Below the pieces are notes generated by a model. That model saw only the letters and a program-made list of their open reading frames with translations. It did no database searches and was not told where the DNA came from. A stretch of 44,799 nucleotides of DNA. It comes from Acidimicrobiales bacterium AG-410-I20. Lineage in GTDB: Bacteria; Actinomycetota; Acidimicrobiia; Acidimicrobiales; MedAcidi-G1. The translations under genes and the position numbers were made by a program. The stretch is from positions 1-44,799 of the forward strand of contig CATISD010000023.1 in the NCBI GenBank assembly GCA_949538625.1, in the 5' to 3' direction. Shown here piece by piece: positions 9,836 through 35,675 of this stretch (its first letter is position 1; each line of letters opens with the position of its first letter).

Positions 9836-9838
9836 CCA

Positions 9839-10144: not shown

Positions 10145-10728
10145 TACTCCACATCCTTAGTTTCTTTGACTTCTATCTCTTCTTCGCTAACCAATTCAAC
10201 AATTGGTAGAGGTTGAAGAGGCCCTTTTATTCGTCGCGCTAACGACACTGCTCCAACAACAGCTACTGTAAGCAAAAGGGCAGTAAGTTCAACTGCAAAT
10301 AAGTGATCTGTAAATAACGTTTCGCCAAGGTTTTTGGTATTCGTCATTGGTTCTGGTTTCGGCGATAAGCCTCCAGTGGGTCCATTGACTGAAATCAAAA
10401 GAGTTGTGAGCACTAAACCAAGAATTGATGTTCCAATAATTATCGTCAATGGTCGTTGACCGGAAATCGGTTCAATTCCAAGATCTTCTGCTTTATCAAC
10501 ACCGAGGAGCATGATGACGAAGAGAAAGAGGATGACGATAGCTCCTGCATATACAACAACTTGAACTGCCGCTAAGAAAGTTGCGTCCAGCATTATGAAA
10601 AGAACAGCTATCCCAAACAACGTCTCTACAAGAAAGAGAGCGGCATGAACTGGATTTCGAGCGATTAAAACGCCAAGGGCTCCTGAAAGCACTATGACGC
10701 TACAGATAATGAAAACTGTGACTTCCAT
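10144..10728 (-). CDS. nuoJ: NADH-quinone oxidoreductase subunit J (NuoJ)
   Basis: A five-helix membrane-arm subunit. It has 194 residues. Landmarks are [22 protein letters not shown] in helices 1-2 and [24 protein letters not shown] in helix 3, the helix that carries the pi-bulge in solved complexes. The last 25 residues are acidic and cytoplasmic ([15 protein letters not shown]). Start and stop overlap the neighbours in the TAATG style of the operon. Confidence 0.94.
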
Positions 10729-15003: not shown

Positions 15004-16409
15004 TGTTCCCCCTCTACTGGGGCTGCGATGACTGGGATGCTCTCACGGAGTGTTATCCGGCTTTCAAACTCATCTCTAAAACGGCGTATTGCTGAAACGA
15101 TTGGAGCGACTGATGATGGGCCTAAAGGGCAAATCGTGGTTTGGCTGGGTGGAAAAGGAACTGCTTCGAGTCCCTGATCGCTAAAGGCCGCTACCGGATA
15201 AGGACCAGGACTTATATTGTCTCCTATATCCAAAAGAAGTTCGATGTCTGATGGCCTGCCTTTACCTTCATAGATTCGACGTAAGATTTGTTCTTCCCAT
15301 GTAGTTCCTTCTCGGCACGGTGAGCATTTCCCGCAAGACTCTCTAGCGAAAAAACGAACTACTCTTAAGCAAGCTTTAACAGCATCTGTTGTTTCGTCCA
15401 TAACTACGATGGCTCCTGAGCCAAGCATTGATCCAGCGTCTCCCACAGGTTGAGCTTCTAACGGCAGGTCAAGGTGTTCTTCAAAAAACCATGGAGCGGA
15501 TCCTCCCCCAGGTATAAACATTTTAAGTTGATTTCCATCTCGAATGCCTTGGCAGAAATTCTCTCCATAAAACAAATCACGAAATGTTGTAACACCTTGT
15601 TCAACTTCATATACCCCCGGCCTATTTACATGTCCGGATATGGCAAATAATCGTGTGCCAGGAGATTTTTCCGATCCCATTTCTTTGTATGCAGAAGCAC
15701 CGTTGTCAATTATCCAGGGAACATTTGACAAAGTTTCTACGTTATTTACGATTGTTGGCTGACCATAAAGACCTATTGCGGCTGGGAAATATGGCGGCTT
15801 AAGACGGGGCATGCCTCTGTTGCCTTCAAGGCTTTCAATAAGTGCAGTTTCCTCTCCGACAATATAAGCACCGGCACCCCAATGAAGAATAATGTCAACT
15901 GAGAACTGTGTTCCTAGGATCTCGCGACCAACGTAGCCAGCTTCATAAGCTTCATTAAGTGCTGCCGCTATACGTTCTTGGGCTAAAGCCATTTCTCCTC
16001 GTACATATAAGAAGCATTGAGAAAGGCCAAGTGCATAACAAGCAATAAGGCATCCTTCAATTAACTGATGAGGGTCTCTTTCCATAAGAAGGCGATCTTT
16101 GTAAGTCCCAGGTTCACTTTCATCTCCATTAACTACGAGATATCTTGGCCACACTCCTTCAGGGCAGAATCCCCATTTCACTCCGGCAGGGAACCCAGCA
16201 CCACCTCGGCCTAGTAAAACGGCGTCACGTACTTCATCGTGAACTTCTGAAGGTTTTCTTTCAAGAGCTTTACGAAGCCCGTTGTATCCACCTGTGTTCA
16301 AAAATCTCTCTAACGTAAATGAGTCCTCGAATTTGAATCTTTCAGTAATGAGTTTCGGCCCATCATTATTTATATAACCAGCGGCAAAGACAGGAGCTGA
16401 AGCAGTCAT
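15000..16409 (-). CDS. nuoF: NADH-quinone oxidoreductase subunit F (NuoF)
   Basis: The FMN-containing NADH-oxidising subunit. FMN and NADH sites show as LGRGGAGFPAGVKWGF and GEETALIESLEGNRGMPR. The N3 4Fe-4S cluster motif is SCGKCSPCREG with the distal Cys in TTICPLGP. I choose the ATG at 16409 (MTASAPVFAAG, 469 residues), not 16442: it overlaps the nuoE stop as ATGA and has AAGGAG 8 bases upstream, while the longer version would run 11 codons into nuoE. Confidence 0.95.
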   Translation of the reverse strand: MTASAPVFAAGYINNDGPKLITERFKFEDSFTLERFLNTGGYNGLRKALERKPSEVHDEVRDAVLLGRGGAGFPAGVKWGFCPEGVWPRYLVVNGDESEPGTYKDRLLMERDPHQLIEGCLIACYALGLSQCFLYVRGEMALAQERIAAALNEAYEAGYVGREILGTQFSVDIILHWGAGAYIVGEETALIESLEGNRGMPRLKPPYFPAAIGLYGQPTIVNNVETLSNVPWIIDNGASAYKEMGSEKSPGTRLFAISGHVNRPGVYEVEQGVTTFRDLFYGENFCQGIRDGNQLKMFIPGGGSAPWFFEEHLDLPLEAQPVGDAGSMLGSGAIVVMDETTDAVKACLRVVRFFARESCGKCSPCREGTTWEEQILRRIYEGKGRPSDIELLLDIGDNISPGPYPVAAFSDQGLEAVPFPPSQTTICPLGPSSVAPIVSAIRRFRDEFESRITLRESIPVIAAPVEGEQ

Positions 16410-17056
16410 GATTGAACTCCTTCTGGGCTTTGATTCATCCAATTCGGAGCATTCTTTGATTCTTCTGGTGGGACTATCCCTGCTTTACGATCTGACGGAA
16501 TGTGCTGTTGAATTCGGGACAAAGTTCCATGAGGGGGAATTTCCCCATCATCGCCTTGGTTTCCTTGGCCTAATGGGCTCCGGCCAGAACGTAAATCAGC
16601 CACTACTTCATTAAGTACATGCTCATTAGCCCGATGGAAATACCGATAATTTACTGTGAAGCATGGAGCTTCTGTGCAGGCTGCAATACATTCAACATCT
16701 TCAAGTGTGAATAAACCGTCTTCAGTAGTCTCACCATCTGATATCCCAAGAGTTGATTCTGCGTGCTCTAGAAGTTCTTCACCTCCTAGAAGTAGACAAG
16801 AAATGTTCGTACATATGTTTATTAGATACTTTCCTACAGGATGGAATTTGAACATTTCATAAAAGCTGCCTGTTCCTAAGACTTCGGCAGATGTGACTCC
16901 TGTTAATTCAGCAATCTGAGTCATTGCTTCATTGGTGATCCAACCGCTTTGTTCTTGCGCTAGGTGGAGTAACGGAATCACCGCCGACTTTGGACGAGGG
17001 TATTTTCCGATAGTTTCATGAGCCCGACGGAGATTTTCTTCGGTGAAGTAAGACAT
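16406..17056 (-). CDS. nuoE: NADH-quinone oxidoreductase subunit E (NuoE)
   Basis: The 24-kDa-type thioredoxin-fold subunit carrying 2Fe-2S cluster N1a beside NuoF. The four Cys are visible as CTNISC and CIAACTEAPC. It has 216 residues; about the last 60 are polar and low in complexity, likely disordered (GQGNQGDDGEIPPHG...). Its ATG overlaps the nuoD1 stop (TAATG), with GGGGGAGG upstream as a strong ribosome site. Confidence 0.94.
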   Translation of the reverse strand: MSYFTEENLRRAHETIGKYPRPKSAVIPLLHLAQEQSGWITNEAMTQIAELTGVTSAEVLGTGSFYEMFKFHPVGKYLINICTNISCLLLGGEELLEHAESTLGISDGETTEDGLFTLEDVECIAACTEAPCFTVNYRYFHRANEHVLNEVVADLRSGRSPLGQGNQGDDGEIPPHGTLSRIQQHIPSDRKAGIVPPEESKNAPNWMNQSPEGVQS

Positions 17057-18348
17057 TACCGATCGACCTCCCCCATGATTGGGTCTACTGAGGAAATCAC
17101 TGCTACTCCATCTGCTATTAAGCCACCTTCCATCAGATGAGGGAGGGTTTGGAGATTTACGAAACTTGGTCCACGTATATGCATCCGGTAAGGGTTAGGG
17201 CCTCCATCAGAAACGATGTAGCAGCCAAGTTCCCCTCTTGGGCTTTCTACTGCTACATAGGCTTCACCTTCTGGAACATGAAAGCCCTCAGTGAATATTT
17301 TGAAATGATGTATTAATGCTTCCATCGATTCATCGATTCTTGCTCTTGGTGGTGGTGTGACTTTTTTATTCTGGATTCGGTAATCACCCTCGGGCATGCG
17401 TTCTAGGATCTGTTCAATTATTTTTAATGATTCACGAATCTCATTTAAGCGGATAGCAAAACGGTCAAAACAATCCCCGTATGTTCCGACTACTACATCA
17501 AAGTTGACTTGATCATAAGCGAGATAAGGGGCATGACGACGTAAGTCCCATGCGTAGCCAGTGGATCGCAGAATTGGTCCAGTTGCTGATAGGGCGAGGG
17601 CTTCAGCCGGGTTTAATACCCCTACCCCTTGTAATCGCTCACGGAAAATAGGCTGACCAGTCTGCAAAACGTCATACTCTTCTAGGCGGGGAGGAATGAT
17701 TTCGAGCAACTTCTTTACATCTTCCTCCCAACCATCGGGAAGATCTGCTGCTACTCCACCTGGCCGGATGTAGTTATGATTCATTCTTAGGCCAGTTACT
17801 TTTTCGAAGAAACGAAGAACTTCTTCACGCTCCCTCCAGCCATAAATCATCATTGAAACAGCGCCTAAATCCATCCCATTTGTTGCCTGAAATAATAAAT
17901 GAGAAGAAACCCTGTTGAGTTCGCACATCAGCATACGAATCCATGTCGCCCTAGGAGGGATCTCAAGACCTAATAGTTTTTCGGTTGCTAACGAAAAAGC
18001 TAACTCAGAAAAAAGTGGGGCTGCATAATCCATACGCGTAACGTTGGTGGCTCCTTGTAGATAACTTAATCCTTCAGCCGTTTTTTCCATTCCAGTATGT
18101 AAGTAGCCAATTACTGGCTTTGACCGGAGAATCGTTTCCCCTTCCATCTCTAACATAAGCCGAAGCACTCCATGGGTAGAAGGATGAGATGGCCCCATAT
18201 TCAGAATCATTCTGTGATCGTCGTCAAAGGTCTCCGGATCGCCCACGAGAGCATTTGCCTCTTCCTCGTTAAGACGAAGAACTGGACTCTCATCTCTTCT
18301 AAAGACTCTTTCTGATTCTCCGAGAAGTAGCTCTTTACTATCTGTCAT
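17056..18348 (-). CDS. nuoD: NADH-quinone oxidoreductase subunit D (NuoD1)
   Basis: The quinone-site subunit of the 14-subunit complex. I place the start at the ATG at 18348 (MTDSKELLLG, 430 residues); the track's 18429 start reads through nuoC1. An AGGGAGG ribosome site lies 5 bases upstream, and the ATG overlaps the nuoC1 stop. With this start the quinone-headgroup pair falls at H59 (SHPSTHG) and Y108 (TRMDYAAP), the same spacing as in characterised complexes. The canonical end SSVDPIMGEVDR is present. This makes it the orthodox copy against which NuoD2 can be judged. Confidence 0.95.
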   Translation of the reverse strand: MTDSKELLLGESERVFRRDESPVLRLNEEEANALVGDPETFDDDHRMILNMGPSHPSTHGVLRLMLEMEGETILRSKPVIGYLHTGMEKTAEGLSYLQGATNVTRMDYAAPLFSELAFSLATEKLLGLEIPPRATWIRMLMCELNRVSSHLLFQATNGMDLGAVSMMIYGWREREEVLRFFEKVTGLRMNHNYIRPGGVAADLPDGWEEDVKKLLEIIPPRLEEYDVLQTGQPIFRERLQGVGVLNPAEALALSATGPILRSTGYAWDLRRHAPYLAYDQVNFDVVVGTYGDCFDRFAIRLNEIRESLKIIEQILERMPEGDYRIQNKKVTPPPRARIDESMEALIHHFKIFTEGFHVPEGEAYVAVESPRGELGCYIVSDGGPNPYRMHIRGPSFVNLQTLPHLMEGGLIADGVAVISSVDPIMGEVDR

Positions 18349-18884
18349 TAGAGCCTCCCTACTTCTGGAGAGAATTGAACTGGAATTTGCCCTACATCGT
18401 GGTCTTTTCGTAGTGGGTGTCCTTCCCAACTATCAGGGAGAAGAATTCGAGAATGATCAGGATGCCCATCAAATTTCACACCGAATAAATCCCATACTTC
18501 TCTTTCCATTGCTTCTGTTCCAGGAAATAAATCAAAAAGAGATGGAACGGTTGGATCGTCAGTACCGGCTTGTACTCGAAGCCGAATCCTATTTCCTTGA
18601 CTGTGATTTATGAGGGAAATTACCACTTCAAATCGTTCTGGCTTGATGCAATCAGGTAAATCTTTTCGGCCAGGATGTGTTAAATAATCAACAGCAGTGA
18701 CATCGATTGCCATACAGAAACCCTCTTCCTTTAAAAGAGCCACTGTTTCTGACAACTGATGTGGCATCAAATGGAGAACTGTCTGCCCATGCAACTCTGT
18801 AACAGGTACTCCATAAGATGTAGGCCCGGAATACTCTTGAATTAAGTCTTCAGTCTCCTCAACTGTTTCTTCTGCTTCCGTCAT
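18348..18884 (-). CDS. nuoC: NADH-quinone oxidoreductase subunit C (NuoC1)
   Basis: The 30-kDa-type peripheral subunit. Signatures are EREVWDLFGVKFDGHPD and SWEGHPLRKDHDVG. It has 178 residues, compact compared with NuoC2 (227). It starts 5 bases after nuoB1 and ends overlapping the nuoD1 start (TAATG). Confidence 0.93.
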   Translation of the reverse strand: MTEAEETVEETEDLIQEYSGPTSYGVPVTELHGQTVLHLMPHQLSETVALLKEEGFCMAIDVTAVDYLTHPGRKDLPDCIKPERFEVVISLINHSQGNRIRLRVQAGTDDPTVPSLFDLFPGTEAMEREVWDLFGVKFDGHPDHSRILLPDSWEGHPLRKDHDVGQIPVQFSPEVGRL

Positions 18885-18889
18885 GATGT

Positions 18890-19492
18890 TTATTTCTCTA
18901 CTATCTCAACGGGTGTTTCATTACTAACTTGAGGAAGATCTAAATCAATTGCAGCGCCTCCTTGGTTTATCTCTCTACGGCGTGTAAGTTCACCGTTTTG
19001 AATGTTGTCGTGCAATGTGAGGATTGCGTGCATCAGTGTTTCCGGTCCAGGAGGACACCCAGGAGCATAAACATCCACAGGCACTATTTGATCTACTCCT
19101 TGAACAATGGCGTAGTTATTAAACATCCCACCACTTGAGGCGCAAACTCCCATTGAAATAACCCATTTGGGTTCCATCATCTGGTCATAGATTTGACGCA
19201 ATATCGGGGCCATTTTTTGTGAAACCCGACCTGCCACGATCATGAGGTCTGCTTGTCGGGGAGAGGCTCGAAAGACTTCCATCCCATACCTTGCAAGATC
19301 ATAATGTGCTGCTCCTGTCGCCATCATTTCAATAGCGCAGCAAGCAAGACCAAAAGTTGCAGGCCAACAACTTCTTGCCCGTGACCATTTAACTAAATCT
19401 TCAATCCGGGCCGTAACAAAATTATGTTCTAGCCCTTCTAAACCTTCAGCTGCAATGTGGCTTGTATCGCCGAGTAGTGGAATACGTGCCAT
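18890..19492 (-). CDS. nuoB: NADH-quinone oxidoreductase subunit B (NuoB1)
   Basis: The subunit that carries cluster N2. The Cys set is complete: [20 protein letters not shown] and [10 protein letters not shown]. The start is taken as the ATG at 19492 (MARIPLLGD, 200 residues); the longer track version reads the nuoA1 3' end out of frame. AGGAG lies 10 bases upstream, and the ATG shares a base with the nuoA1 TGA stop. NuoB1 and NuoB2 differ throughout, consistent with old paralogues. Confidence 0.95.
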
Positions 19493-19989
19493 CAGATTGC
19501 TACTCCTGTGTCTTCTTCTGGTCGCCCTTCTAGACCCACTTGACGTACACCAGTATCCTGTATGCGAACTACAGTGGATTGAGTTGTTCGATCTGTTGAA
19601 ATTTGACCAGAGTTGCTTCGACCTCTCCGAACAGGTCCCCATTCAAGAGCACCATTCCCAATTAGATATATAAATGATTCAAATACGGCTACAGAAAAAA
19701 TAATTACAGCGACAAAACCCGAAAGCCCGAGCTCTCGATGCGCTAATGCCCATGGGTAAAAGAAAATAATTTCAATATCAAAAACAATAAAAATCATCGC
19801 GACAAGAAAGAAACGCACTGGAAACCGTTCTGGATTATTTTTTGTTGGCACTATGCCGCATTCATATGGAGCAAGCTTTTTATCATTTGGGTTTCGAGGT
19901 GCCAATAATTTCGTCGCTACAAAACTTAAAGCAGCAAATAGAAATGCGAGTACTCCTAAAGCGAGGATTGGAAGATATTGGCCGAGCAT
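19492..19989 (-). CDS. nuoA: NADH-quinone oxidoreductase subunit A (NuoA1), extended C-terminus
   Basis: A three-helix subunit of complex I. Landmarks are [17 protein letters not shown] in the first loop and [15 protein letters not shown] before helix 3. At 165 residues it is about 40 longer than NuoA2 because of a polar C-terminal extension ([16 protein letters not shown]...) of unknown use. A TAGGAG ribosome site precedes the ATG. Only 43 bases separate it from the upstream bc-module gene, and I see no terminator or promoter there, so the nuo genes are probably cotranscribed with the bc genes. Confidence 0.93.
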
Positions 19990-20032: not shown

Positions 20033-21043
20033 CTAATTCCCCGTTTTTTCAAACTCCTCACGTCGGGCCATGACTTCTTTATCCCGAACGTGAAGCCAAT
20101 AACAAAGTGCTAAAAATATGAATAATGACCCAATGGTGACTAAAGCAGGTCTAAGTCTTACCGTTCCAAGGTCTCGAATCATAATCACTGAGATGACAGG
20201 TTTATTTTCATCAGCTACTGGCCGAGGAGGGGTTTCTCCGGGAGCCACTTCTTGGAAAACGACTTCTTGTAACTGAACTATGCTGTATCGAGTTGGATGC
20301 GTAATTTGAGCTGAACTCTTGATCCACTGCACGATCCGATCTATCCGGTTTGGATTCTCCTTGAGCGAATCCTTACCTCCGCGTGTATATGCATCAAGTA
20401 GTTTGAAATCTGCGCTCGATGTGAAATTTAGTGAAGGATGTTCTAACACATCAGCTACTGCTTGAGCTTGAGCGTCACCGGCGAGTGTAGTTGGTAGTAG
20501 TTTCCAGCCACTTAAATCATTGAAGCCAGCATTCTTAGTTACTTCAGGTGCAACTGCTGCTAATTCTGAGCGAGTTACAATCTCATTTCTCAACTGAACT
20601 GATTCTTGGAGTGCGGCAAGTTCCTCTTCAGATAGATCTGGGTTATCTACTGCGCTTGGAAGCGTATTGTATTCTGCCTCTGCGCGTGGATCATTTGAAC
20701 TTATAACTAGTTCATAACCGCTTGCTAAATCATCTGGATTTGGTAATAAGCGAGCTTCTGGTAGCCCACTTTGTTGTAAGTCTCCAACATTGATATCAAT
20801 TACTTGCCATGATGGACTTTCACCTTTCCAGCCGGTCCCATAAATCCACCAAGTTGCTGCAAGAATCGTCATCCAACCAAAGAACCCTGCAGCTGAGATT
20901 AAAGTACCAAGACGTGTTCCGGAATTTGTAGAAACGATAAGCCAAACTGAGCCCATGAGTACTACAGCTCCTACGGCAACTGTCAAAATACCCCGAATTT
21001 GAGGATCCCAAGCGATTCCAGCCAATGTGATAAGTTCGCTCAC
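20033..21043 (-). CDS. Uncharacterised membrane protein of the bc/nuo cluster
   Basis: I do not recognise a family. The protein has 336 residues: two hydrophobic helices at about 15-38 and 45-67, a soluble loop of roughly 220 residues, and a third helix at about 298-318 with a short charged tail. The loop has no Cys motif, so it probably binds no c-haem or Fe-S cluster; it contains a helical acidic stretch (LSEEELAALQES). The GTG start overlaps the diheme cytochrome c stop (GTGA), and nuoA1 follows 43 bases later. Position alone suggests an accessory or assembly subunit linking the bc complex to complex I. Confidence 0.8.
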   Translation of the reverse strand: MSELITLAGIAWDPQIRGILTVAVGAVVLMGSVWLIVSTNSGTRLGTLISAAGFFGWMTILAATWWIYGTGWKGESPSWQVIDINVGDLQQSGLPEARLLPNPDDLASGYELVISSNDPRAEAEYNTLPSAVDNPDLSEEELAALQESVQLRNEIVTRSELAAVAPEVTKNAGFNDLSGWKLLPTTLAGDAQAQAVADVLEHPSLNFTSSADFKLLDAYTRGGKDSLKENPNRIDRIVQWIKSSAQITHPTRYSIVQLQEVVFQEVAPGETPPRPVADENKPVISVIMIRDLGTVRLRPALVTIGSLFIFLALCYWLHVRDKEVMARREEFEKTGN

Positions 21044-22251
21044 CCTAGGCTCCTCTCATATGCGACAATAGCGGCAATTTGTTCTGGAGTGTAGATCTGA
21101 CTATAGGTAACTGAGGCTCCAGTTTCCCGATCTGTAAGGTCATCATCAACGCGACCACCGAAACCTGGCATACCACCAGTTCCGCTGCGAGCGTTCCCAT
21201 AACTGACGCCTAACTCAGAGCCACTGTGAATAAAGCTTTCTTGATCTCCGGGTGTTGGGAAGTGAGAATTCACACCATAAAGGCTGGGTCCAACAGCACC
21301 CTTACCTGGTTCCCATCCATTGAGAACACCACTTTCAACTAGTTTGGGCCATTCAGTTAATAGCTCTTCCGTGCTTTCAGCATCTACTGCGCCATAAGAA
21401 AATCCTGGTGTGTGGCATCGAGCGCAACTATTTGCTCCTTGAGCTGCAGAATTGTTGAATAGTAATTCTCCATAGGCTAAATAATTTTCACTATCTGGAT
21501 TGGATGCTTCTATTAGCCACGCTTCTACTGCTGCATCTATCTGTTCATCTGAGAAATCTGGATTGGCATGTTTAACTAAAATTCGTGCCCCGGTTGTTAA
21601 TCCGGAATTAACTTCGTTGATTACTTCTTCTTGGTCCAACTGTATTGACCGTAGATAGACAACCAATTGATGAATTTGTTGTTCTGTTAAAGGCCCGCCT
21701 CCGGGAAGCCCCCAGGCGGGCATAGGGCTACCTCCACGTCCATAGTTAAGTATGTGTGTTACTTCTGACTCATCAAATCTTGAGAGTACGGTAGTTAATG
21801 CTGGTGCTTTCCAATCAACTTGAGCAACAAAGCTTCCTTCACTGTCTGTAAGAGTGAAAGAAGTTACTCCGCCAACCCCTCCTGGTCCATGACATCCTGC
21901 ACAGGCTTCTTCATATTCTGCTGCACCTCGTTTTTCGAAACGTTTAACCCAGCCATAGTCAGCATTTTCTTGACGAGCTGGCTCCATTAGCCAATACAAA
22001 GGAAGAATTATAGAAATAGCTGCCAATGTAACAAGAGACCAGCCTAGGTGAGAGTCAAGTTTTTTTGTTTCTAACTCATCATCATCTGAATGTGGTTTAC
22101 GATTTGCAGCTACTTCTATTTCTGAACCGATTTCTCGTTTCCCGATTCGAAAGTTAAATAGGAGATATACCAAAAACCCGACCGCCACAACAGAGGCAAT
22201 AACTACACCTATAGTCCTCTGGGTGCTAGCAGCGAAAATCATTTCGGACAT
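21040..22251 (-). CDS. Membrane-anchored diheme cytochrome c of the bc complex
   Basis: The electron-accepting cytochrome subunit next to the Rieske protein and cytochrome b. Two c-haem sites are visible: CAGCH at residues 117-121, with MPAWG as a likely Met-ligand region, and CARCH at 276-280. Two hydrophobic helices near residues 12-33 and 70-88 precede the haem domains. It resembles the diheme QcrC of actinobacteria in function but has a different arrangement, since classical QcrC is anchored at its C-terminus. It has 403 residues. It would pass electrons to a terminal oxidase that is not in this window. Confidence 0.88.
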   Translation of the reverse strand: MSEMIFAASTQRTIGVVIASVVAVGFLVYLLFNFRIGKREIGSEIEVAANRKPHSDDDELETKKLDSHLGWSLVTLAAISIILPLYWLMEPARQENADYGWVKRFEKRGAAEYEEACAGCHGPGGVGGVTSFTLTDSEGSFVAQVDWKAPALTTVLSRFDESEVTHILNYGRGGSPMPAWGLPGGGPLTEQQIHQLVVYLRSIQLDQEEVINEVNSGLTTGARILVKHANPDFSDEQIDAAVEAWLIEASNPDSENYLAYGELLFNNSAAQGANSCARCHTPGFSYGAVDAESTEELLTEWPKLVESGVLNGWEPGKGAVGPSLYGVNSHFPTPGDQESFIHSGSELGVSYGNARSGTGGMPGFGGRVDDDLTDRETGASVTYSQIYTPEQIAAIVAYERSLG

Positions 22252-22279: not shown

Positions 22280-23146
22280 TCAGTGGTCAGCCTGGCCTAT
22301 ACAGTTAGGCCCTTCAGCTTCTTGACCAGTTGTATTTACTCCAATTGGTGGACCTTGAACAATCATTCCAGTGTTAACTGTTAGAACTCCGTCAGCGACT
22401 GAAACTCCGAACCTGTCCATACCTCTTGGGGCAGGGCCGCCGCGCTTCTCTCCAACTTGGTTGTATTGAGATCCGTGACAGGGGCATTCAAACCATTGTG
22501 AAGAAACGCAGTTAGGTACTCTGCAACCAAGGTGCGGGCATTTCTGATAAAGCGCAACAACACCAGCTTCGAATCCCTGATCAACTCCTGCTGTCATACC
22601 GCTTAATTCGGCTGCTGAATAAGTATTTCGTGCCTTTTCTACTGCATTGTTTGGATAAGCAGTAATCCACATGCGTCCTTCTGGTTTATACAGGAAGCCA
22701 TTATTTGCATCAATTTCCGCAAGGATCTCAACAATGTTTCCAACTTTGATCTTTGACCCAAATCCACTCACCCCTTGAGGCCATAAAAAAGCAATACAGG
22801 CGGCTCCAAAACCTGATAATCCAAATCCCATCATTCCAACCAAACTGCGGTTAAAGAACTGGCGGCGTGTCACTCCCAAAGTTTGAGGATCAGGAGCAAC
22901 AAATACTTCTTCTGGAACTGATTCGACAACTGGGACTGGTACTTCATTTCGTTCTGCGATTGCCGCAGCTTCTACTTCACGCCCAGTAAGTGGTTGTGGT
23001 TCTCTAGATAAAACTGGGTTTGATTTGTCTTTTTGTCGTGCTTCTTTTGATAATCCTGCTGCAACACGATCCCGTCTTTTTGAAGCACCAAAAAGAAGCA
23101 CTGCTGAAAGCACAACCAAGATAATCACAGCAATAGCAATAGCCAT
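22280..23146 (-). CDS. Rieske iron-sulfur subunit of the cytochrome bc complex
   Basis: This subunit oxidises quinol and passes one electron to cytochrome c. The 2Fe-2S ligands and disulfide Cys are visible as CPHLGC at 203-208 and CPCHGS at 221-226. It has 288 residues: a first helix at 2-20, a charged linker, then a twin-arginine motif (TRRQFFNR, residues 93-100) directly ahead of a second helix (MMGFGLSGFGAACIAFLW). Tat-dependent insertion of a helix just before the Rieske domain is known for actinobacterial QcrA and fits this layout. AAGGAG lies 6 bases before the ATG. Confidence 0.93.
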   Translation of the reverse strand: MAIAIAVIILVVLSAVLLFGASKRRDRVAAGLSKEARQKDKSNPVLSREPQPLTGREVEAAAIAERNEVPVPVVESVPEEVFVAPDPQTLGVTRRQFFNRSLVGMMGFGLSGFGAACIAFLWPQGVSGFGSKIKVGNIVEILAEIDANNGFLYKPEGRMWITAYPNNAVEKARNTYSAAELSGMTAGVDQGFEAGVVALYQKCPHLGCRVPNCVSSQWFECPCHGSQYNQVGEKRGGPAPRGMDRFGVSVADGVLTVNTGMIVQGPPIGVNTTGQEAEGPNCIGQADH

Positions 23147-23192: not shown

Positions 23193-23921
23193 TCATAATT
23201 CGAAGAAAAGTCCTGCGTCCCATGGAAATACAAAGTTGAAACCTGGGCCACGGAAGAATGACCCAATCATCACAAGTACTGCCCAAAACATTAAATGCAC
23301 GGTCATAAGCGATATAGCGAATTTACGATCTTCAGGTTTTTTAGATGGATTTTTATCAATGTAAGGAGCCATCACTAAAAGAATGAGCCCCATTCCCGGA
23401 ATAGTTACTCCTGCGACCATTGGATGAAACATTGTTAAAAGTTCTTGAAGACCTAAAAAGTACCAAGGAGCTTTTGATGGATTAGGAGTCTTATTAAAAT
23501 CGGCTAGTTCTAATAACGGGGCGTTCACAAAGATCGAGAACAAAAGCGTAAATAAAGTTATCCCTAACGCAGCTAAAAATTCAATTACTAGCAGATGTGG
23601 CCAGACGTGAACTTTGTCTACGGGGGTTGCTTTAGTGTCTTGAATAGATCCTGACTTTACGACCGCTAGCAACCTTTGAGTGTTGCCATCTGGCCCAGTT
23701 CCTATACCAGGTTCTGAAGGTGGTGGAGATGCGGGCTGGTCCGCGGCTGCTTTTCCTCTGTCAAGAAGATGCGCTGGAATTTTTTCATCTCCAGAAGAGG
23801 CTTCAGCGGAAGTAGTCGACGTATCTGATTCAGTAGAAGCAGGTGTTTCTTCTTTTGCTCCAGCTGCTTTAGCTCTAGCCTCTTCTGCTCTTTTACGTAA
23901 GTGTTCAGGTATTTCTGTCAT
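23193..23921 (-). CDS. Cytochrome b C-terminal half (subunit IV/PetD-like) with a long disordered N-terminus
   Basis: The C-terminal half of a split cytochrome b, which completes the quinol-oxidation site. Three helices lie at about 107-133, 165-187 and 200-222. The Qo motif PEWY of bc1/b6f appears as APWY at residues 151-154 (KAPWYFLGLQELL), so the catalytic-loop Glu is absent. The first 95 residues are Ala/Glu/Ser/Pro-rich and probably disordered. They begin with MTEIPEHLRKRAEEAR and carry a weaker second copy (KIPAHLLDRGKAA) at about 47-59; the same opening occurs in the divergent cytochrome c gene at 25939. Confidence 0.9.
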   Translation of the reverse strand: MTEIPEHLRKRAEEARAKAAGAKEETPASTESDTSTTSAEASSGDEKIPAHLLDRGKAAADQPASPPPSEPGIGTGPDGNTQRLLAVVKSGSIQDTKATPVDKVHVWPHLLVIEFLAALGITLFTLLFSIFVNAPLLELADFNKTPNPSKAPWYFLGLQELLTMFHPMVAGVTIPGMGLILLVMAPYIDKNPSKKPEDRKFAISLMTVHLMFWAVLVMIGSFFRGPGFNFVFPWDAGLFFEL

Positions 23922-23932
23922 GAGTGCCCCGC

Positions 23933-24721
23933 CTATAGCGGCCCTGATATGCCGCCGTCTTTACGGACGCGCCAGAAATGAATAGCCATAAAAATTACAA
24001 TTACAAAGGGCAACATCAGTACGTGTAGCACGTACCACCGAAGCAAAGTATCGGTACCTATTTCTACCCCACCAAGCAAAACAAAGCGGACCTGTTCCCC
24101 GAAAACGGGAGTAAAGCCCATCATGTTAGTTCCCACGGTGACCGCCCATAGAGCTAACTGATCCCACGGCAACAAGTACCCAGTGAATGAGAGAAGGAGT
24201 GTTAGTTGCAAAAGCATTACTCCAATCACCCAGTTGAATTCTCGAGGTGGTTTATATGCACCGTGATAAAAAACTCTTGCCATATGTAAGAACACAGTAA
24301 GAACCATTAGGTGAGCAGCCCAGCGATGCATGTTTCTTACTAAAAGACCAAAGCCAACTGCTGTTTGAAGAATCTGTATGTCATCCCAAGCCTGTGCAGC
24401 TGTAGGTCTATAAAAGAACATCAAAAAGATGCCGGTGACTGTCAAGAGAATAAATAGAAAGAAGCTGAGTCCTCCTAGACAGAGGGTGTAACTGACTTTT
24501 ACGGCATGTCGTTTTACTTTGACCGGATGCAGGTGGTACATAACGCTGTTCATAATTACGTATGACCTGTTTCTAGGACTGTCGCTATATCCTTTTCGGA
24601 AAATTGATCCGGGTCTAAAAATTGACGACCAAGCTTGCGAGTCCTGCATGCGGTCGTTGACTTGACTGAGACGCTCTTGAAGCGCCTGTCCTGCCGGTTT
24701 TTTACCGTTTTCTTCGGCCAC
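23933..24721 (-). CDS. Cytochrome b6-type diheme subunit with a candidate haem ci cysteine
   Basis: The N-terminal, haem-binding half of a split cytochrome b. It has four helices in 262 residues. The bis-His pairs are H132/H146 (RNMHRWAAHL...FLHMARV) and H233/H248 (WYVLHV...AIHFWRVRKDGG). The second pair is spaced by 14 residues, as in b6 rather than mitochondrial-type b. C81 in TLCLGGLSF lies 51 residues before H132, exactly the b6 spacing of Cys35 to His86, where haem ci (cn) is covalently attached. The GTG start at 24721 is taken from the ORF track. It is read in one block with subunit IV, 11 bases apart. Confidence 0.93.
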   Translation of the reverse strand: MAEENGKKPAGQALQERLSQVNDRMQDSQAWSSIFRPGSIFRKGYSDSPRNRSYVIMNSVMYHLHPVKVKRHAVKVSYTLCLGGLSFFLFILLTVTGIFLMFFYRPTAAQAWDDIQILQTAVGFGLLVRNMHRWAAHLMVLTVFLHMARVFYHGAYKPPREFNWVIGVMLLQLTLLLSFTGYLLPWDQLALWAVTVGTNMMGFTPVFGEQVRFVLLGGVEIGTDTLLRWYVLHVLMLPFVIVIFMAIHFWRVRKDGGISGPL

Positions 24722-24764: not shown

Positions 24765-25181
24765 TTATGCGAGCCGCATCCCGTATCCATAACCATGACT
24801 GTTTGTGCGTTGATGACCATCTCCTTCAGGAGGGGCTTCACCAACTCGCCCTAAAATAATAACGCCTGTTGGACAACGATCTACGCAAAGCGCACACCTT
24901 GTACATGCATCGTCATCAATTGTAAAAATCACATGATCGCTTGGGTCTTCGCCTGGTTTTTCAGTCCCAATTGATTCTGAGATTGCATCTGGCGTAACCA
25001 TGTGAATGCACTTCCAAGGACAGATGTCAACACATCCTTCACACATGATGCATTCGGATTGATCAATATGAATAAATTGTTTTGGTTTTACAGATTTGAG
25101 AAGCCAATCAGCATCAACTTCGCGCAAAACATAGTCATCAATGAACTTTGGATGATCAGGATTAGCATCTACACTGCTCAT
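24765..25181 (-). CDS. Dicluster (8Fe-8S) ferredoxin-like protein of the bc cluster
   Basis: A small cytoplasmic iron-sulfur protein. It has 138 residues with two full 4Fe-4S motifs: CIMCEGCVDICPWKC near residue 44 and CTRCALCVDRCPTGV near residue 92. A 40-residue N-terminal extension and a Gly/His/Tyr-rich tail surround the ferredoxin fold. It has no helix of its own, but its ATG overlaps the stop of the preceding membrane-protein gene (ATGA), so the two are likely made together and could form a membrane-tethered pair. Ferredoxins are not standard subunits of bc complexes. A role in feeding or draining electrons at cytochrome b is inference. Confidence 0.85.
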   Translation of the reverse strand: MSSVDANPDHPKFIDDYVLREVDADWLLKSVKPKQFIHIDQSECIMCEGCVDICPWKCIHMVTPDAISESIGTEKPGEDPSDHVIFTIDDDACTRCALCVDRCPTGVIILGRVGEAPPEGDGHQRTNSHGYGYGMRLA

Positions 25182-25633
25182 GATCCCACTCCGTCTTTAA
25201 TTAATGGCCGTCCATACTCTGAAGTTGAAGCTGGCGCATCTTTGTCTTGACCTCTTTGCTGCCAAGATCGCCACATGGCTACGTTCCCACCCAGAGCAAC
25301 GATGTAAATAGCGACAGCAATAAAGTCGCGAATTATGAGATAAGAAAGGGTGAATGGTAATGCCCATTCAACTATTCCTTGTTCTCCTGTCCAAAAAAGT
25401 TTTGGTCCGACGATATAGCGATCTGGTCTCCAATTAAGCTCGCTGTCTGCCCAAACAAGCCATTGATGAGGGACAACTCCATAAATCCACCAGAAGATAA
25501 AAAATACGTAGGTTGCAAAAAGCATGGCTTCGCCCCAAGTAAAAACTTTGTCAGCTGGGCAACGCTTTGTGTACCAATTAATCCCAAGAGCAAGCAATGC
25601 AGTAACAATGATAGATAGTACAAACGCTACCAT
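25178..25633 (-). CDS. Uncharacterised three-helix membrane protein, first gene of the respiratory directon
   Basis: I do not recognise a family. It has 151 residues with helices at about 2-17, 33-53 and 92-118. The loop between helices 2 and 3 is rich in Trp and aromatics (VPHQWLVWADSELNWRPDRY), and the tail is polar. It has no Cys motif and no obvious haem-ligand pair. It overlaps the ferredoxin gene, which suggests it is the ferredoxin's membrane anchor or a small subunit of the b6f-like complex. GAGGAG lies upstream of the ATG, and a Rex operator lies 32 bases before it. Confidence 0.82.
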   Translation of the reverse strand: MVAFVLSIIVTALLALGINWYTKRCPADKVFTWGEAMLFATYVFFIFWWIYGVVPHQWLVWADSELNWRPDRYIVGPKLFWTGEQGIVEWALPFTLSYLIIRDFIAVAIYIVALGGNVAMWRSWQQRGQDKDAPASTSEYGRPLIKDGVGS

Positions 25634-25938
25634 TTAGTTTCAGCTCCTCTATTGGTAAATGGACTTAGTGAAATATTGCACAAAGTTTTGTAATCACTAG
25701 CGTAACCGAACAAGCAGGAACGCGGTGTGCTTCTTTTAAAGTTCCTATGATATTTTTTCTATCATCTCAAACAGAGATTCGGCTATACCAGTAAGACAAA
25801 TTTCTGATAAAAATTTATGTTGATCTATTTGACAAAATCTATGAACTATTACGCCATTTATCGTAAGTCCGCCGCTACCCTCGCGGAAGTACTTATTATT
25901 AATAGTTCCGAACCAGATCCGTTGCCTTGGAGGCCACG
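25634..25938 (-). other. Divergent control region between the bc/nuo directon and the cytochrome c gene
   Basis: About 305 bases without a gene, AT-rich, separating the minus-strand directon from the plus-strand cytochrome c. It contains the Rex-like operator (25666-25683), a 6-base inverted repeat ATGATA-N7-TATCAT at 25747-25765, and a TCCGC...GCGGA inverted repeat at 25868-25887 in the likely leader of the plus-strand gene. A TTGACA lies at 25829 but has no -10 at proper spacing. Promoters must exist for both directions, but I cannot fix them by eye. Confidence 0.6.
25666..25683 (-). promoter_or_regulatory. Rex operator (ROP-like) upstream of the bc/nuo directon
   Basis: The plus strand reads TAGTGAAATATTGCACAA. 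Against the Rex consensus TTGTGAAATATTTCACAA this matches 16 of 18 positions, and the minus strand reads TTGTGCAATATTTCACTA. It ends 32 bases before the first ATG of the directon, where a repressor would block transcription. In Streptomyces, Rex is known to control nuoA-N, cyd and rex-hemACD. A rex gene lies at 35028-35675 of this same window. Binding is inferred from the sequence match. Confidence 0.75.
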
Positions 25939-29708: not shown

Positions 29709-30965
29709 TCAAATTGATGTAACCGCTGAAGCCGCCAAGTCAAGTGTTCGATCAATAATCTCATCGGTGTGAACCAGACTTGGGAATAAGCCTTCGTAGG
29801 GGCCAGGAGCAAAAGCCACCCCTTGTTCAAGTAACGCATGAAAAACTTTTGGGTATATCCCGTTTTCTGCAAGTTCCTGTGCTTCATCAAAATTTGTAGG
29901 TAATTTTTCTCCAAAGAACAGACCTACAAGTGAACCAACTCTTGGCAACAGAGCAGGAAATCCAGCAGCAGAAAACACATCAGTTAATCCATCTGCCAGT
30001 CGTTCAGCCGTTGTAGTCAATTGCTTGTAAGCATCATGGCCAAGAAAATCTAAAGTTACGCGACCTGCCGCCATCGCTAAAGGATTTCCTGAGAGAGTCC
30101 CTGCCTGATATACACCTCCTAAGGGTGCAATATTTTCCATTATTTCTCTTCTCGCTCCAAATGCGCCTACAGGAAGGCCCCCACCAACTACTTTCCCAAA
30201 GCACCAAATATCGGGAGTGACTCCAAAATATTCAGCTGCACCACCATAGGACAGTCGAAATCCAGTAATAACTTCATCGAAAATCAACAACGCACCCGTT
30301 TCATCACATACATTTCTCAACGCTTCAAGAAACCCTGAGTTTGGTGATATTAGACCCATGTTTGCAGCAACCGGTTCAACAATAACTGCCGCAAATGTCT
30401 CATCAATTTCGGGTACAACGTTGTATGGGGCAACGACGGTATCCGCTACCGCCCCTGGAGTTACTCCTTCGCACCCACTTAGTCCTTGATTTGCTACGCC
30501 GCTACCACCTGCTGCTAGAAGAGCATCAGAATGGCCGTGATAACACCCTGCAAATTTCAATATTCGGTTTCTTCCAGTTGCTCCTCTTGCAAGCCTCACT
30601 GCTGACATCGTTGCTTCTGTTCCACTTGAAACAAAACGGATTAACTCAAGCCCTTGAATTCTTTCGATAACCATTTCAGCGAGCTCTACTTCTGCTTCAG
30701 TAGGGGCGCCAAAAGTCGTTCCTGATGCAGCAGCTTTTGTGATCGCCTCTATAACCGCGGGATGGGCATGGCCAAGAATGCCAGGGCCGTATGACTGTAC
30801 ATAATCAATATAACTATTTCCTTCAATGTCATATATGTACGGGCCTTGGGCGTGAGTAACAAAATATGGTGTTCCTCCAACTGATCCAAAAGCTCTTACT
30901 GGAGAATTAACCCCACCGGGAATAACTTGCTTAGCCCGCAAAAATAGTTCAGAATTTGAAATCAT
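29709..30965 (-). CDS. hemL: Glutamate-1-semialdehyde 2,1-aminomutase
   Basis: A PLP enzyme that turns glutamate-1-semialdehyde into 5-aminolevulinate, the second step of the C5 haem route. It has 418 residues. Landmarks are GGVNSPVRAFGSVGG at the N-terminus, LIFDEVITGFR, and WCFGKVVGGGLPVGAFG with the PLP lysine. Its ATG overlaps the hemB stop by 4 bases. It is the last gene of the rex-hem run. Its stop abuts that of convergent pgi, so there is no room for a separate terminator. Confidence 0.95.
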   Translation of the reverse strand: MISNSELFLRAKQVIPGGVNSPVRAFGSVGGTPYFVTHAQGPYIYDIEGNSYIDYVQSYGPGILGHAHPAVIEAITKAAASGTTFGAPTEAEVELAEMVIERIQGLELIRFVSSGTEATMSAVRLARGATGRNRILKFAGCYHGHSDALLAAGGSGVANQGLSGCEGVTPGAVADTVVAPYNVVPEIDETFAAVIVEPVAANMGLISPNSGFLEALRNVCDETGALLIFDEVITGFRLSYGGAAEYFGVTPDIWCFGKVVGGGLPVGAFGARREIMENIAPLGGVYQAGTLSGNPLAMAAGRVTLDFLGHDAYKQLTTTAERLADGLTDVFSAAGFPALLPRVGSLVGLFFGEKLPTNFDEAQELAENGIYPKVFHALLEQGVAFAPGPYEGLFPSLVHTDEIIDRTLDLAASAVTSI

Positions 30966-31939
30966 TTTTGAAGTGTTTCAGCTGCTCTGCAGGCTAGATA
31001 AGTCAATATAAAGTCTGCTCCGGCTCTTTTTATTGATAAAAGATGTTCCATCCCTACAGAGTCTCCGTCTATCCATCCATTTGCAGCCGCTGCTTCCACC
31101 ATGGCGTATTCCCCGCTTACGTGATAAGCGGCTAAAGGTAGATTTGTTTTTGCCCGCACTTTAGAAATGACGTCAAGATAGGAAAGAGCAGGTTTTACCA
31201 TCACCATGTCTGCACCCTCAGATATATCGAGATGAACTTCCATCAATGCTTCCCGAGCATTTTTGGGATCTTGTTGGTAACCCTTGCGATCCCCTCCATC
31301 AACAATTTCCACATCAACTGCGTCTCGGAATGGGCCATAAAGTGCTGAAGCGTATTTTGCCGCATATGCAAGAATGGCAATATCTTCAAAATCTTTACTA
31401 TCTAAAGCTGTACGTATTGCTTTTACTTGACCATCCATCATTCCCGAAGGCGCTGTCACATGTGCTCCTGCCTCAGCCTGAGCAATAGCAATTTGTTGGT
31501 ATAACTCGAGTGTGGCGTCGTTATCTACTGTTCCGTTACTTTTTACAATTCCACAATGTCCATGATCCGTGTATTCGTCTACACAAAGATCTGCGATCAG
31601 GACCATTTCGTCATTTAATTCATTTCTCAAATCGTTAAGCGCTACTTGAACTATTCCATTTGGATTCCATGCTTCCGAACCTTCTGCATCTTTTTTTTCC
31701 GGGATTCCAAATAAAACAAGGCCAGGAATTCCTCTATCTCGGAGTTTTTTTACTTCTTCTAAAAGACTTTTCCTTGTGTGCTGAAAAACTCCAGGTAACG
31801 AATGAACTGGTTCAGGTTCTTTAATGCCTTCACGAATAAATAAAGGCGCTACTAAGTCGTCAACAGACAACTGAGTTTCAGCAACAAGCCGTCGAATGGC
31901 TGCCGTTTTACGTAGACGTCGAGGACGATTTTCTATCAC
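30962..31939 (-). CDS. hemB: Delta-aminolevulinic acid dehydratase (porphobilinogen synthase)
   Basis: Condenses two 5-aminolevulinates into porphobilinogen. It has 325 residues. The two Schiff-base Lys lie in SGMMDGQVKAIR and MVMVKPALSYLD. The metal site reads DLCVDEYTDHGHCG: the first and third Cys of the zinc triad are present and the second is Asp, a variant between the zinc (CxC...C) and magnesium types that I believe is common in actinobacteria. The start is GTG at 31939, and the stop overlaps the hemL ATG. Confidence 0.94.
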   Translation of the reverse strand: MIENRPRRLRKTAAIRRLVAETQLSVDDLVAPLFIREGIKEPEPVHSLPGVFQHTRKSLLEEVKKLRDRGIPGLVLFGIPEKKDAEGSEAWNPNGIVQVALNDLRNELNDEMVLIADLCVDEYTDHGHCGIVKSNGTVDNDATLELYQQIAIAQAEAGAHVTAPSGMMDGQVKAIRTALDSKDFEDIAILAYAAKYASALYGPFRDAVDVEIVDGGDRKGYQQDPKNAREALMEVHLDISEGADMVMVKPALSYLDVISKVRAKTNLPLAAYHVSGEYAMVEAAAANGWIDGDSVGMEHLLSIKRAGADFILTYLACRAAETLQK

Positions 31940-31957
31940 AAGAGTAATTCTACGGAG

Positions 31958-32695
31958 TTAGTTGGCTGCCCACTCCCGCGCTACTGACATAAGTCCTTCT
32001 AACGAGTATTCCTTTGCTTGGTAAATATTTTTATATCCATTTTCTCGTGCGGCTTGAGCAGTAACTGGCCCAATGCATAAAGCTGCCGCTGGTGTCGGCG
32101 ATTTAACTAATTCGGTATATCGATTAACTGCTGAAGCGGAAGCAAAAATAACGGCATCAGACATGAGAGCTTGAGCTACTTTATTCTGATCAATAGTTGG
32201 TTGTATGTTTCTATAAGCCACTACTTCTTCGACTACCCAACCAAGATCTCTCAAACCATCGGCTAACAGAGGACGAATTCTTTCTGCACGAACAAAAAGT
32301 ATTTCATTCTCTTTTTGAGCTGGTGAGGAGAATTCAGATAAGAGTGAATCGCCTACCGCTTTACTCGGTACAAGTCCTATTGAACACCCTGCTTTTATTA
32401 AAGGTTCAGCGGTCTGGGGACCAACTACTGCAAAAGAAACAGAAGGGATTACTCCATTCAAAGCTTTGATTAAGCGATTTGCGGCATTAGAAGAAGTAAC
32501 TACTACCCACTCATAGTTCTCAATTTTTTTAACTGCACTTTCTAAGGCCGCTCCCCCATCTACGGGATCATGAATTTCTATAACAGGCAACTCAATCACA
32601 TTGGCTCCTTGCAAACGTAAGAAGTTGCACAGTGATTCTGACTGTTCTTTTGCACGTGTTACGACCATTGTGCGGTCAACTAAAAAGCCACTCAT
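31958..32695 (-). CDS. hemD: Uroporphyrinogen-III synthase
   Basis: Closes and inverts ring D of hydroxymethylbilane to give uroporphyrinogen III. HemD sequences are poorly conserved; support comes from TMVVTRAKEQSESLCNFL at the start, VVTSSNAANRLIKAL near residue 65, AVIFASASAVNRY near 183, and ALCIGPVTAQAARENGY near 207. It has 245 residues, typical for a stand-alone form without a fused methyltransferase. Its ATG overlaps the hemC stop (ATGA). Confidence 0.9.
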   Translation of the reverse strand: MSGFLVDRTMVVTRAKEQSESLCNFLRLQGANVIELPVIEIHDPVDGGAALESAVKKIENYEWVVVTSSNAANRLIKALNGVIPSVSFAVVGPQTAEPLIKAGCSIGLVPSKAVGDSLLSEFSSPAQKENEILFVRAERIRPLLADGLRDLGWVVEEVVAYRNIQPTIDQNKVAQALMSDAVIFASASAVNRYTELVKSPTPAAALCIGPVTAQAARENGYKNIYQAKEYSLEGLMSVAREWAAN

Positions 32696-33585
32696 TGTTT
32701 CTTTAGTAACTCACGACCGCCTTGGGTGTCAAGGAGAGTTTGAGCAACACTCTTCCCTAGGCTCAGACTTTCTTGCCCTGTTTCCGTAGTTTTGAGAAAA
32801 GATTTACCATCCATTGAAGAAACGACGGCTGTAAGTGAAATTTCATCTTCCGAAACAACAGCATTTGCTGCAATCGGTAGATCGCAACCTGTCCCTAATT
32901 CATATAGAAATGCTCTCTCTGCTGAAACGGCGCGATGTGTGTCTTTATGATTTATTTCAGAGAAGAGAGACTTCAGTTCTTCATCTTGTGAACGGCTTTC
33001 AATCGCAAGTGCTCCTTGCCCTACTTGTGGAAGGAGAGTGGAAGGATTAAGTACATCAACAACTTCCGGTGTTAAACCCAATCTATCTAACGCAGCTTTA
33101 GCCATAACTATCGCATCATAATGTTCAGCTTTTTTGAGCCGAGTTTCAATATTTCCTCTTAGATCTTCAAAACAAAGATCTGGCCGTAAATGTAATAAAT
33201 GGGCTTTTCGCCGGATAGACCCGGTAGCGATGCAGGCTTCGTGAGGAAGATCTTCCCAACGGTTTCCAACAAGAACATCTCTTGGATCTGCTCTCTCAGG
33301 AAATGCAATTAGTTCTAATCCATCCAGTGATGTCGCTGGCAAATCTTTTGCTGAATGAATAGCAAAATCAGCTTTTCCTTCTAGTACTGCAAGTTGAACT
33401 TCTTTAACAAAGACTCCTTGTCCGCCTAACTCACTCAATGAAGTCTCGCGATCTTTGTCTCCTGCGGTTTCAACAATAACTATCTCTATTTCAAGTTCTG
33501 GAAAGGCTGCAGATAGCAAAGAAATGACTTTATTTGTCTGCCATAATGCGAGAGGGCTGCCTCTAGTAGCGGCCCGAATTTTCAT
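32692..33585 (-). CDS. hemC: Hydroxymethylbilane synthase (porphobilinogen deaminase)
   Basis: Polymerises four porphobilinogens into hydroxymethylbilane. It has 297 residues. Landmarks are ATRGSPLALWQTNKV at the start, FAIHSAKDLP near residue 80, and LGTGCDLPIAANAV near 230, whose Cys holds the dipyrromethane cofactor. It lies 11 bases after hemA and overlaps hemD, the same order as Streptomyces rex-hemACD. Confidence 0.95.
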   Translation of the reverse strand: MKIRAATRGSPLALWQTNKVISLLSAAFPELEIEIVIVETAGDKDRETSLSELGGQGVFVKEVQLAVLEGKADFAIHSAKDLPATSLDGLELIAFPERADPRDVLVGNRWEDLPHEACIATGSIRRKAHLLHLRPDLCFEDLRGNIETRLKKAEHYDAIVMAKAALDRLGLTPEVVDVLNPSTLLPQVGQGALAIESRSQDEELKSLFSEINHKDTHRAVSAERAFLYELGTGCDLPIAANAVVSEDEISLTAVVSSMDGKSFLKTTETGQESLSLGKSVAQTLLDTQGGRELLKKQ

Positions 33586-33596
33586 AACGTTTAGAC

Positions 33597-34856
33597 CTAT
33601 AGATTGAACAAATCACGCAGTGCTTCTGCAAGGCGCTCCCCGCGAGCGGTCCCAGCAGCATCTTTCATGCGGACTGTGGGCTCATGCAAAAGTTTTCCTA
33701 CTACTCCAGATACAAGCCCTTCTACTATGTTTCGTTGATTTTCGTCTAGTTCTTCTAATTTTGAGGCAAACCGAGCAAATTCATTTTCAGTGACTTCTGC
33801 AGCACGATCTCTAAGTCCAGCAACTAATGGGGCAACGGAACGAGCTGTTGATTCGTCAACATATCGATCAAGTTCAGTATCAATTATCTTTTGAACCGAG
33901 GTAATTTCTCGACGTCGTGCTTGAATGCCCTCTTCAACGAAAGCCCGTAAGTCATCCATGTCTAATAAGGTCACCCCATCGATCTCTCCTGACGCAGGAT
34001 CAACATCTCTAGGGACAGCGATGTCAACGATAAGAAGTTCTCGGTTCGATCTTCTTCTCATGACCTCGTGAAGATCCCCATGTTCAAGAATCACAGAAGA
34101 CGCTCCAGTTGAGGTTAGTAAGACATCGATTTCAGCTAGATGCGAAGGAAGTTCTTCAAGTTTTACTGGGGTTCCATTGAGTCGTTCTGCGACCTGAACA
34201 GCACTCTCCCAAGTCCTATTTGCCACAAGGATCTCCGCTACTCCACCGTTATTTAAGGCTCTTGCTAATCCTTCACCCATCTTTCCGGTTCCTACAATAA
34301 GAACTCGGCAATTGTTTAAACCCCCAAGACGTTGATTAGCCATTGCTACAGCGGCTTGAGACACTGATGTTGTTTTTTTAGAGATCTCTGTTTCTGTTCT
34401 CACACGCTTTCCAACTTGAAGGGCATGCCTAAACATAGGATTTAATACTGGCCCGACTGTAGATTCTTCGGTTGCTGCCTCCCACGCCATACGAACTTGA
34501 CCAAGTATTTCGTTCTCCCCTAACACTACTGAATCCAGTCCGGATGCAACTGCAAATAAGTGCCTTACTGCATCAGTATCGTAAAGACCAGTTAGGTAGT
34601 CAGAAAACTCTTCAGGGGCTACATGTGTGACCTCTGCAAAGAAGTTTCGAATATCTTCATACCCTCCATGAAATTTCTCAGCGAATGCATAAACTTCAAT
34701 TCGGTTACAGGTAGACAAAATGACGGCTTCTGTAACGTTTTCTCTTGAAGTGAGATCCGAAAGTGCTTTGGGTATATCGGTTTTTTGAATGGTCATCCGT
34801 TCCAAAAGCTCAAGAGGAACGTTTTTATGATTTAGACCTACGACAACGATAGACAC
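33597..34856 (-). CDS. hemA: Glutamyl-tRNA reductase
   Basis: Reduces glutamyl-tRNA(Glu) with NADPH to glutamate-1-semialdehyde, the entry to the C5 haem route. It has 419 residues. The catalytic Cys lies in ILSTCNRIEVYAF near residue 50, SVVLGENEILGQVR near 109, and the NADPH fold in VLIVGTGKMGEGLARAL near 184. The start is GTG at 34856 with AAGGAG upstream. It is the first haem gene after rex, separated by 171 bases that carry a possible promoter of its own. Confidence 0.95.
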   Translation of the reverse strand: MSIVVVGLNHKNVPLELLERMTIQKTDIPKALSDLTSRENVTEAVILSTCNRIEVYAFAEKFHGGYEDIRNFFAEVTHVAPEEFSDYLTGLYDTDAVRHLFAVASGLDSVVLGENEILGQVRMAWEAATEESTVGPVLNPMFRHALQVGKRVRTETEISKKTTSVSQAAVAMANQRLGGLNNCRVLIVGTGKMGEGLARALNNGGVAEILVANRTWESAVQVAERLNGTPVKLEELPSHLAEIDVLLTSTGASSVILEHGDLHEVMRRRSNRELLIVDIAVPRDVDPASGEIDGVTLLDMDDLRAFVEEGIQARRREITSVQKIIDTELDRYVDESTARSVAPLVAGLRDRAAEVTENEFARFASKLEELDENQRNIVEGLVSGVVGKLLHEPTVRMKDAAGTARGERLAEALRDLFNL

Positions 34857-35027: not shown

Positions 35028-35675
35028 CTATTCATTTCGTTCTCTTTGTTGTTCATGAAAAGCAAGAATATGAAGTTCAGTCGCCAAATCTACTTTTCTA
35101 AGAGTCACAGATTCTGGAACCGTTACCAAACCTGGCGCAAAGTTCAAAATAGAATAGATACCTGCTTCAATAAGTTGATCTGTAACCACTTGCGCTGAAG
35201 AAGCAGGCGTAGCAACGATGCCTAGTGTGCAGTTATTTTCTTCAACTACGTTGGATAACTCTTCAATTGGATAGACAGTTATCCCTGCAATTTTTTCACC
35301 TACTACCTCAGAAGAAGAGTCAACTAATCCTTTAATAGGGAACCCGCCAGATGCAAAGCCACCATAACGAGTTAATGCGCGACCAAGGTTTCCAGCTCCA
35401 ACAATCACAACTCCAACTGGGTCGCCATCTCCCAACACAAGTTTGATTTGTTGAATAAGGAAATCAACTTCGTAACCAACTCCACGCTTCCCATATGACC
35501 CGAGAATAGAGAGATCTTTACGTACGTTTGCAGCGTTCACCCCTGCGATTGCTGCTAATTGTTCAGAAGAAACTGTAATGGTTCCGTTATCTGCTAAATC
35601 AACAAGCCCTCTTAGATATACAGGTAATCGGGCGACTGTTGCCTCAGGCACCAAGGGGCTTTCTATATCTTCCAC
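35028..35675 (-). CDS. rex: Redox-sensing transcriptional repressor Rex
   Basis: A cytoplasmic repressor that senses the NADH/NAD+ ratio; NADH releases it from operator DNA. It has 215 residues: a winged-helix domain with the recognition stretch AAIAGVNAANVRKDLSILG and GKRGVGY near residue 62, then a Rossmann domain with GVVIVGAGNLGRAL near residue 88. The C-terminal domain-swapped helix region (LHILAFHEQQRE) is present. The start is GTG at 35675. The haem genes follow as in Streptomyces rex-hemACD, and a good Rex site lies before the bc/nuo directon. Confidence 0.95.
   Translation of the reverse strand: MEDIESPLVPEATVARLPVYLRGLVDLADNGTITVSSEQLAAIAGVNAANVRKDLSILGSYGKRGVGYEVDFLIQQIKLVLGDGDPVGVVIVGAGNLGRALTRYGGFASGGFPIKGLVDSSSEVVGEKIAGITVYPIEELSNVVEENNCTLGIVATPASSAQVVTDQLIEAGIYSILNFAPGLVTVPESVTLRKVDLATELHILAFHEQQRERNE

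Follow-up and report, generated by a model that had tools for sequence, protein, structure and literature searches.

A predicted operator of the redox repressor Rex ahead of a bc complex and complex I directon in marine Acidimicrobiia

Results

The window, by which we mean the whole analysed stretch of 44,799 nt (contig CATISD010000023.1 of Acidimicrobiales bacterium AG-410-I20), carries on its minus strand a directon of 27 genes that encode a bc-type complex and two complex I sets (Table 1). The respiratory gene block measures roughly 30 kb, and the continuous run of such genes described in an earlier, sequence-only reading of this DNA indeed starts at 25633 and reaches 66 or beyond, the directon being cut there by the contig end. 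The gene order is retained in the 19 genomes compared, in some of which the end of the directon lies off the fetched stretch; where that stretch is long enough, the second set of the relatives goes on with J-N-like genes. The second complex I set has no E, F or G. The products of 25178-25633 and 20033-21043, neither with a Pfam or NCBIfam match, are candidate subunits or assembly factors of the bc complex. Between the bc part and nuoA, a 12-bp hairpin is located on the minus strand at 20034-20008; it is not clearly conserved in relatives and its T tail is poor.

Table 1 Features of the respiratory directon, its upstream region and the rex locus in the window
Feature	Position	Strand	Remarks
-10-like hexamer TACGCT (TANNNT)	25699..25704	-	ends 15 nt before the operator
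Predicted Rex operator TTGTGCAATATTTCACTA	25666..25683	-	12/14 fixed consensus positions; core invariant in 22 aligned family loci
Shine-Dalgarno-like AGAGGAGCTG ahead of the first gene	25641..25650	-	read directly
First gene, conserved small membrane protein	25178..25633	-	no Pfam/NCBIfam match; in 19/19 genomes compared
4Fe-4S ferredoxin-like protein	24765..25181	-	Fer4 families
Cytochrome b, N-terminal part (b6-like)	23933..24721	-	PF00033
Cytochrome b, C-terminal part (petD-like)	23193..23921	-	PF00032
Rieske iron-sulfur protein	22280..23146	-	PF00355
Cytochrome c protein	21040..22251	-	PF13442, PF00034
Conserved membrane protein, no family	20033..21043	-	in all relatives compared
Complex I set 1, nuoA-N, 14 genes	4411..19989	-	gaps ≤5 nt
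Complex I set 2, nuoA2 B2 C2 D2 H2 I2	66..4289	-	cut by the contig end
rex, redox-sensing repressor	35028..35675	-	NF003992, 296 bits versus cut-off 226; PDB Rex structures
hemA, hemC, hemD, hemB, hemL, downstream of rex	29709..34856	-

Ahead of the first gene the plus strand reads TAGTGAAATATTGCACAA at 25666-25683, which corresponds to TTGTGCAATATTTCACTA in the sense of the operon. This 18-bp inverted repeat agrees with the Rex consensus TTGTGAANNNNTTCACAA at 12 of the 14 fixed positions, the other four of its 18 positions being N; the match of 16 out of 18 given in the sequence-only reading is correct and equals this value. Also as described there, exactly 32 nt lie between the end of the operator and the ATG at 25633, and rex is found 9.3-10 kb away in the same window. 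A better match, with 13 of the 14 fixed positions, is present in G002, G006, G008 and others.

By its letters alone, the operator is not significant. The window holds three sites with up to three mismatches, compared with 4.8 expected from shuffles, and in the whole 1.5-Mb genome 10 sites with at most two mismatches face approximately 13 expected by chance (scaled up from the window shuffles), so that the letters prove little because chance yields as many sites of this quality. It is the conservation at a fixed place in the family that makes the operator significant. The family set comprises 25 genomes, in two of which (G005 and G014) the region is not assembled; in all 23 others TTGTGNANNNNTTCACNA sits ahead of the respiratory directon, and no close relative within the family has lost the site while keeping the promoter. 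An additional match to TTGTGNANNNNTTCACNA occurs only in G017 and G021, once in each and in G021 inside a coding frame, while the reversed control pattern gives five matches across all 25 genomes. In the 22 aligned family loci, which were picked for having the site although the family set omits no genome with the region assembled, site positions 1-7, 12-16 and 18 (13 positions) are 100% identical, whereas each flanking column holds 0.3-0.5 bits.

In 22/22 family loci, the end of a TANNNT hexamer lies 13-17 nt ahead of the site; in the majority of the remaining loci of the order it ends at site position -1 to +1. We place the predicted transcription start near 25692, from which the operator would span roughly +10 to +27; owing to the placement of TANNNT, it would cover the start or the early transcribed region. 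The operator of cydA1 in Streptomyces avermitilis, with a Rex footprint from -3 to +25, likewise lies over the start and early transcribed region (PMC5355995). The presence of a TANNNT element immediately ahead of the operator points to a block of initiation by bound Rex. Scans for terminators and promoters gave results at or near the shuffled level.

The Rex protein encoded in the window possesses the domains PF06971 and PF02629, i.e., a winged-helix DNA-binding domain and a Rossmann domain with GxGxxG. Its segments RKDLSILGSYGKRGVGY and GAGNLG align with Rex of Thermotoga maritima, and the T. maritima residues Arg48, Lys49, Arg60, Gly61, GAGNxG and Tyr100, for which roles in contacting bases and NAD have been described (PMC8836258), are all retained. 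The motif recurs at the promoter of rex: of 73 distinct upstream regions of this gene, 43 carry it (0.24 expected from shuffles), in many cases as TTGTGAANNNNTGCACAA, which is reverse complementary to the form before the bc directon. In the genus of the window, the rex promoter shows no site with fewer than four mismatches.

We extended the survey to 77 genome loci with upstream sequence, some of these genomes being shared with the family set, and accepted sites with up to three mismatches 800-1300 bp upstream of cytochrome b. Such a site is carried by 58 of the 77 loci: 55 of the 61 genomes with rex and 3 of the 16 without (Fisher p = 6e-8, kinship ignored). A search with PF06971 found no Rex in the 16 rex-less genomes. 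When kinship was taken into account with a tree built from four proteins encoded at the locus, seven independent pairs differed in rex; the site followed in four to five of these and went the opposite way in none, a sign test that is not significant (p 0.06-0.25) because the pairs are too few. Altogether, the site tends to disappear together with rex. An assembly gap is unlikely to explain the absence of both in L127, which is a single 3.59-Mb chromosome record. Rex and the site occur together in, for example, Aquihabitans sp. G128 (L156), which can be cultured. The six rex-bearing genomes without the site are L117, L142, L146, L149, L165 and L170; L061 also lacks it (five mismatches), and G030 has no site with up to two mismatches. 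A site was present and no rex was found in L147, L155 and L157, of which L147 and L157 have close rex-bearing relatives and may be incomplete genomes. The related L141 and L148, both without rex, have a shortened 17-bp Rex-like repeat, TTGTGAACCACTCACGA, ~1082 bp before cytochrome b, possibly a decayed operator.

Seven of the 10 sites with at most two mismatches in the genome of the window are within coding frames and were set aside. The three intergenic ones are the site before the bc directon, TTGTGAATCTATTCTCAA and TCGTGAATCATTTCACGA. With a single mismatch, TTGTGAATCTATTCTCAA is flanked by a wecA-like gene and the ATP synthase genes (G000:C58:1846-1863; L021 1501-1518; L274, L342), conserved in six of eight genus genomes and in other genera. 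The perfect palindrome TCGTGAATCATTTCACGA lies between ctaB and the cytochrome c oxidase operon (G000:C132:3696-3713; L029 1501-1518; L305, L341 1864-1881), in six of eight genus genomes and no other genus. Its link to the oxidase rests on the relatives, where it is found 54 nt upstream of the operon, because the contig of the own genome ends just past the site. The stretch after ctaB is a COX1 reading frame that runs off the end of the locus, and an Rfam search of this stretch gave no match. The possibility that the bc directon is the only Rex target in this lineage was rejected in view of the predicted sites before the atp and cox operons. Separately, we noticed that G027 (97% complete) has no detectable rex, yet contains the Rex-like TTGAGAAAAGTTTCACAA after a wecA-like gene, ahead of the ATP synthase genes (L299).

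Discussion

The 18-bp site before the respiratory directon is very probably the operator of the NADH-sensing Rex protein encoded 10 kb away, which would repress the bc and complex I genes. We consider this the best reading because the site is conserved in much of the order, tends to be lost together with rex and recurs at the rex promoter in relatives, and because the contact residues of Rex are kept. The mechanism that we infer comprises binding, repression, a transcription start and transcription that continues into complex I set 2. At a low NADH/NAD+ ratio, a Rex dimer would bind just 3' of the -10 element, over the transcription start, and would block initiation of the directon. When NADH rises, Rex would bind it, close and leave the DNA, and the derepressed electron-transport genes would be expressed, restoring NAD+.

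How far this control extends depends on the organization of the directon. Rex might govern the bc part only, with the second complex I set, and perhaps also the first, mainly under internal promoters, a possibility suggested by the 121-nt gap between nuoN and nuoA2, which widens to 1.5-2.9 kb in some members of the order, and by the hairpin ahead of nuoA. We regard such a restricted reach as rather unlikely, since the remaining intergenic gaps do not exceed 46 nt, most of them being overlaps, the order of the genes is retained across the order, and the hairpin has neither clear conservation nor more than a poor T tail. Furthermore, in G035 (L262), where 2.1 kb separate the two sets, a second Rex-like site, TTGTGAGCGAGTTCACTA, precedes set 2, an indication that this set has remained under Rex control there. 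Taken together, the short gaps, the kept order and the second site in G035 make Rex control of both complex I sets likely, via one transcript or two, and a single transcript extending to the second set is plausible.

A different question is whether the site belongs to Rex or to another regulator. CRP/GlxR-type operators of Actinobacteria are palindromes of the form TGTGA-N6-TCACA, overlapping the Rex consensus. An operator of a CRP/FNR-family regulator is a quite improbable reading of the site, even though the genome of the window and 23 of the 24 genomes tested encode CRP-type proteins with the PF13545 HTH domain, because none of the 22 aligned family loci has both TGTGA half-sites, the first being TGTGC in every one of them, and because the same motif stands before rex. 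The presence of CRP-type proteins, counted irrespective of paralogue, also does not appear to track the site: the 23 genomes include some with and some without it. Of the 13 genomes devoid of rex as well as the site, 12 encode such proteins, whose presence would therefore not account for loss of the site. Finally, that the site is a functionless chance match is extremely improbable, for although ~13 sites with up to two mismatches are expected per genome, its core is invariant in the family, its position is fixed and it recurs across the order.

The Rex operator would be part of a larger set of targets. According to the sequence-only reading, the NADH/NAD+ ratio would set the bc complex and both complex I sets at once; our analysis supports the Rex operator underlying this proposal, but the directon is not the sole target, as predicted sites also precede the ATP synthase and cytochrome oxidase genes. 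The level of most of the energy machinery in these cells probably depends on a single redox sensor, and in the genus of the window a response to NADH/NAD+ may be common to complexes I, III, IV and V. The strongest form of this idea, in which Rex would act genus-wide as a master switch for all of oxidative phosphorylation through the bc/complex I, atp and cox operators, the autoregulatory site at rex having been lost, has in our judgment about an even chance of being correct.

These predictions carry the Rex regulon, known best from Streptomyces and Firmicutes, to marine Acidimicrobiia, which are abundant and uncultured, and add the bc complex to it; they also give a testable rule for the tuning of respiration in these bacteria. 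Lineages that have lost rex and the site together offer a natural experiment that may show what takes the place of control by NADH sensing. The Rex operator is well supported by the comparison of genomes. Its mechanism is known; the lineage and the predicted targets are new, and the papers searched contained no report of Rex control of bc complexes.

Among the closest known systems is that of S. avermitilis, whose Rex regulon has the same consensus, TTGTGAANNNNTTCACAA, as found here (PMC5355995). Its DNase I-footprinted sites include TTGTGCACGCGTTCACAA (rex) and TTGTGACCTGCTTCACAT (nuoA1), the former sharing with the site in the window a C at position 6; these operators lie across the promoter or the start of transcription, and binding is reduced by NADH (PMC5355995). 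In Staphylococcus aureus and other Firmicutes, a Rex of the same regulator family and with the same consensus, TTGTGAAW4TTCACAA, acts mostly on fermentation and anaerobic NAD+-regenerating genes and not on the aerobic electron-transport chain (PMC2883068). The targets in S. avermitilis include nuoA1-N1, atpIBEFHAGDC and rex-hem, that is, separate nuo and atp operons, as well as cydABCD for the bd oxidase, with no bc complex or aa3-type oxidase named (PMC5355995). In the Acidimicrobiia studied here, in contrast, the first target block joins a bc-type complex to two complex I sets, and a predicted site is also found before a cytochrome c oxidase operon.
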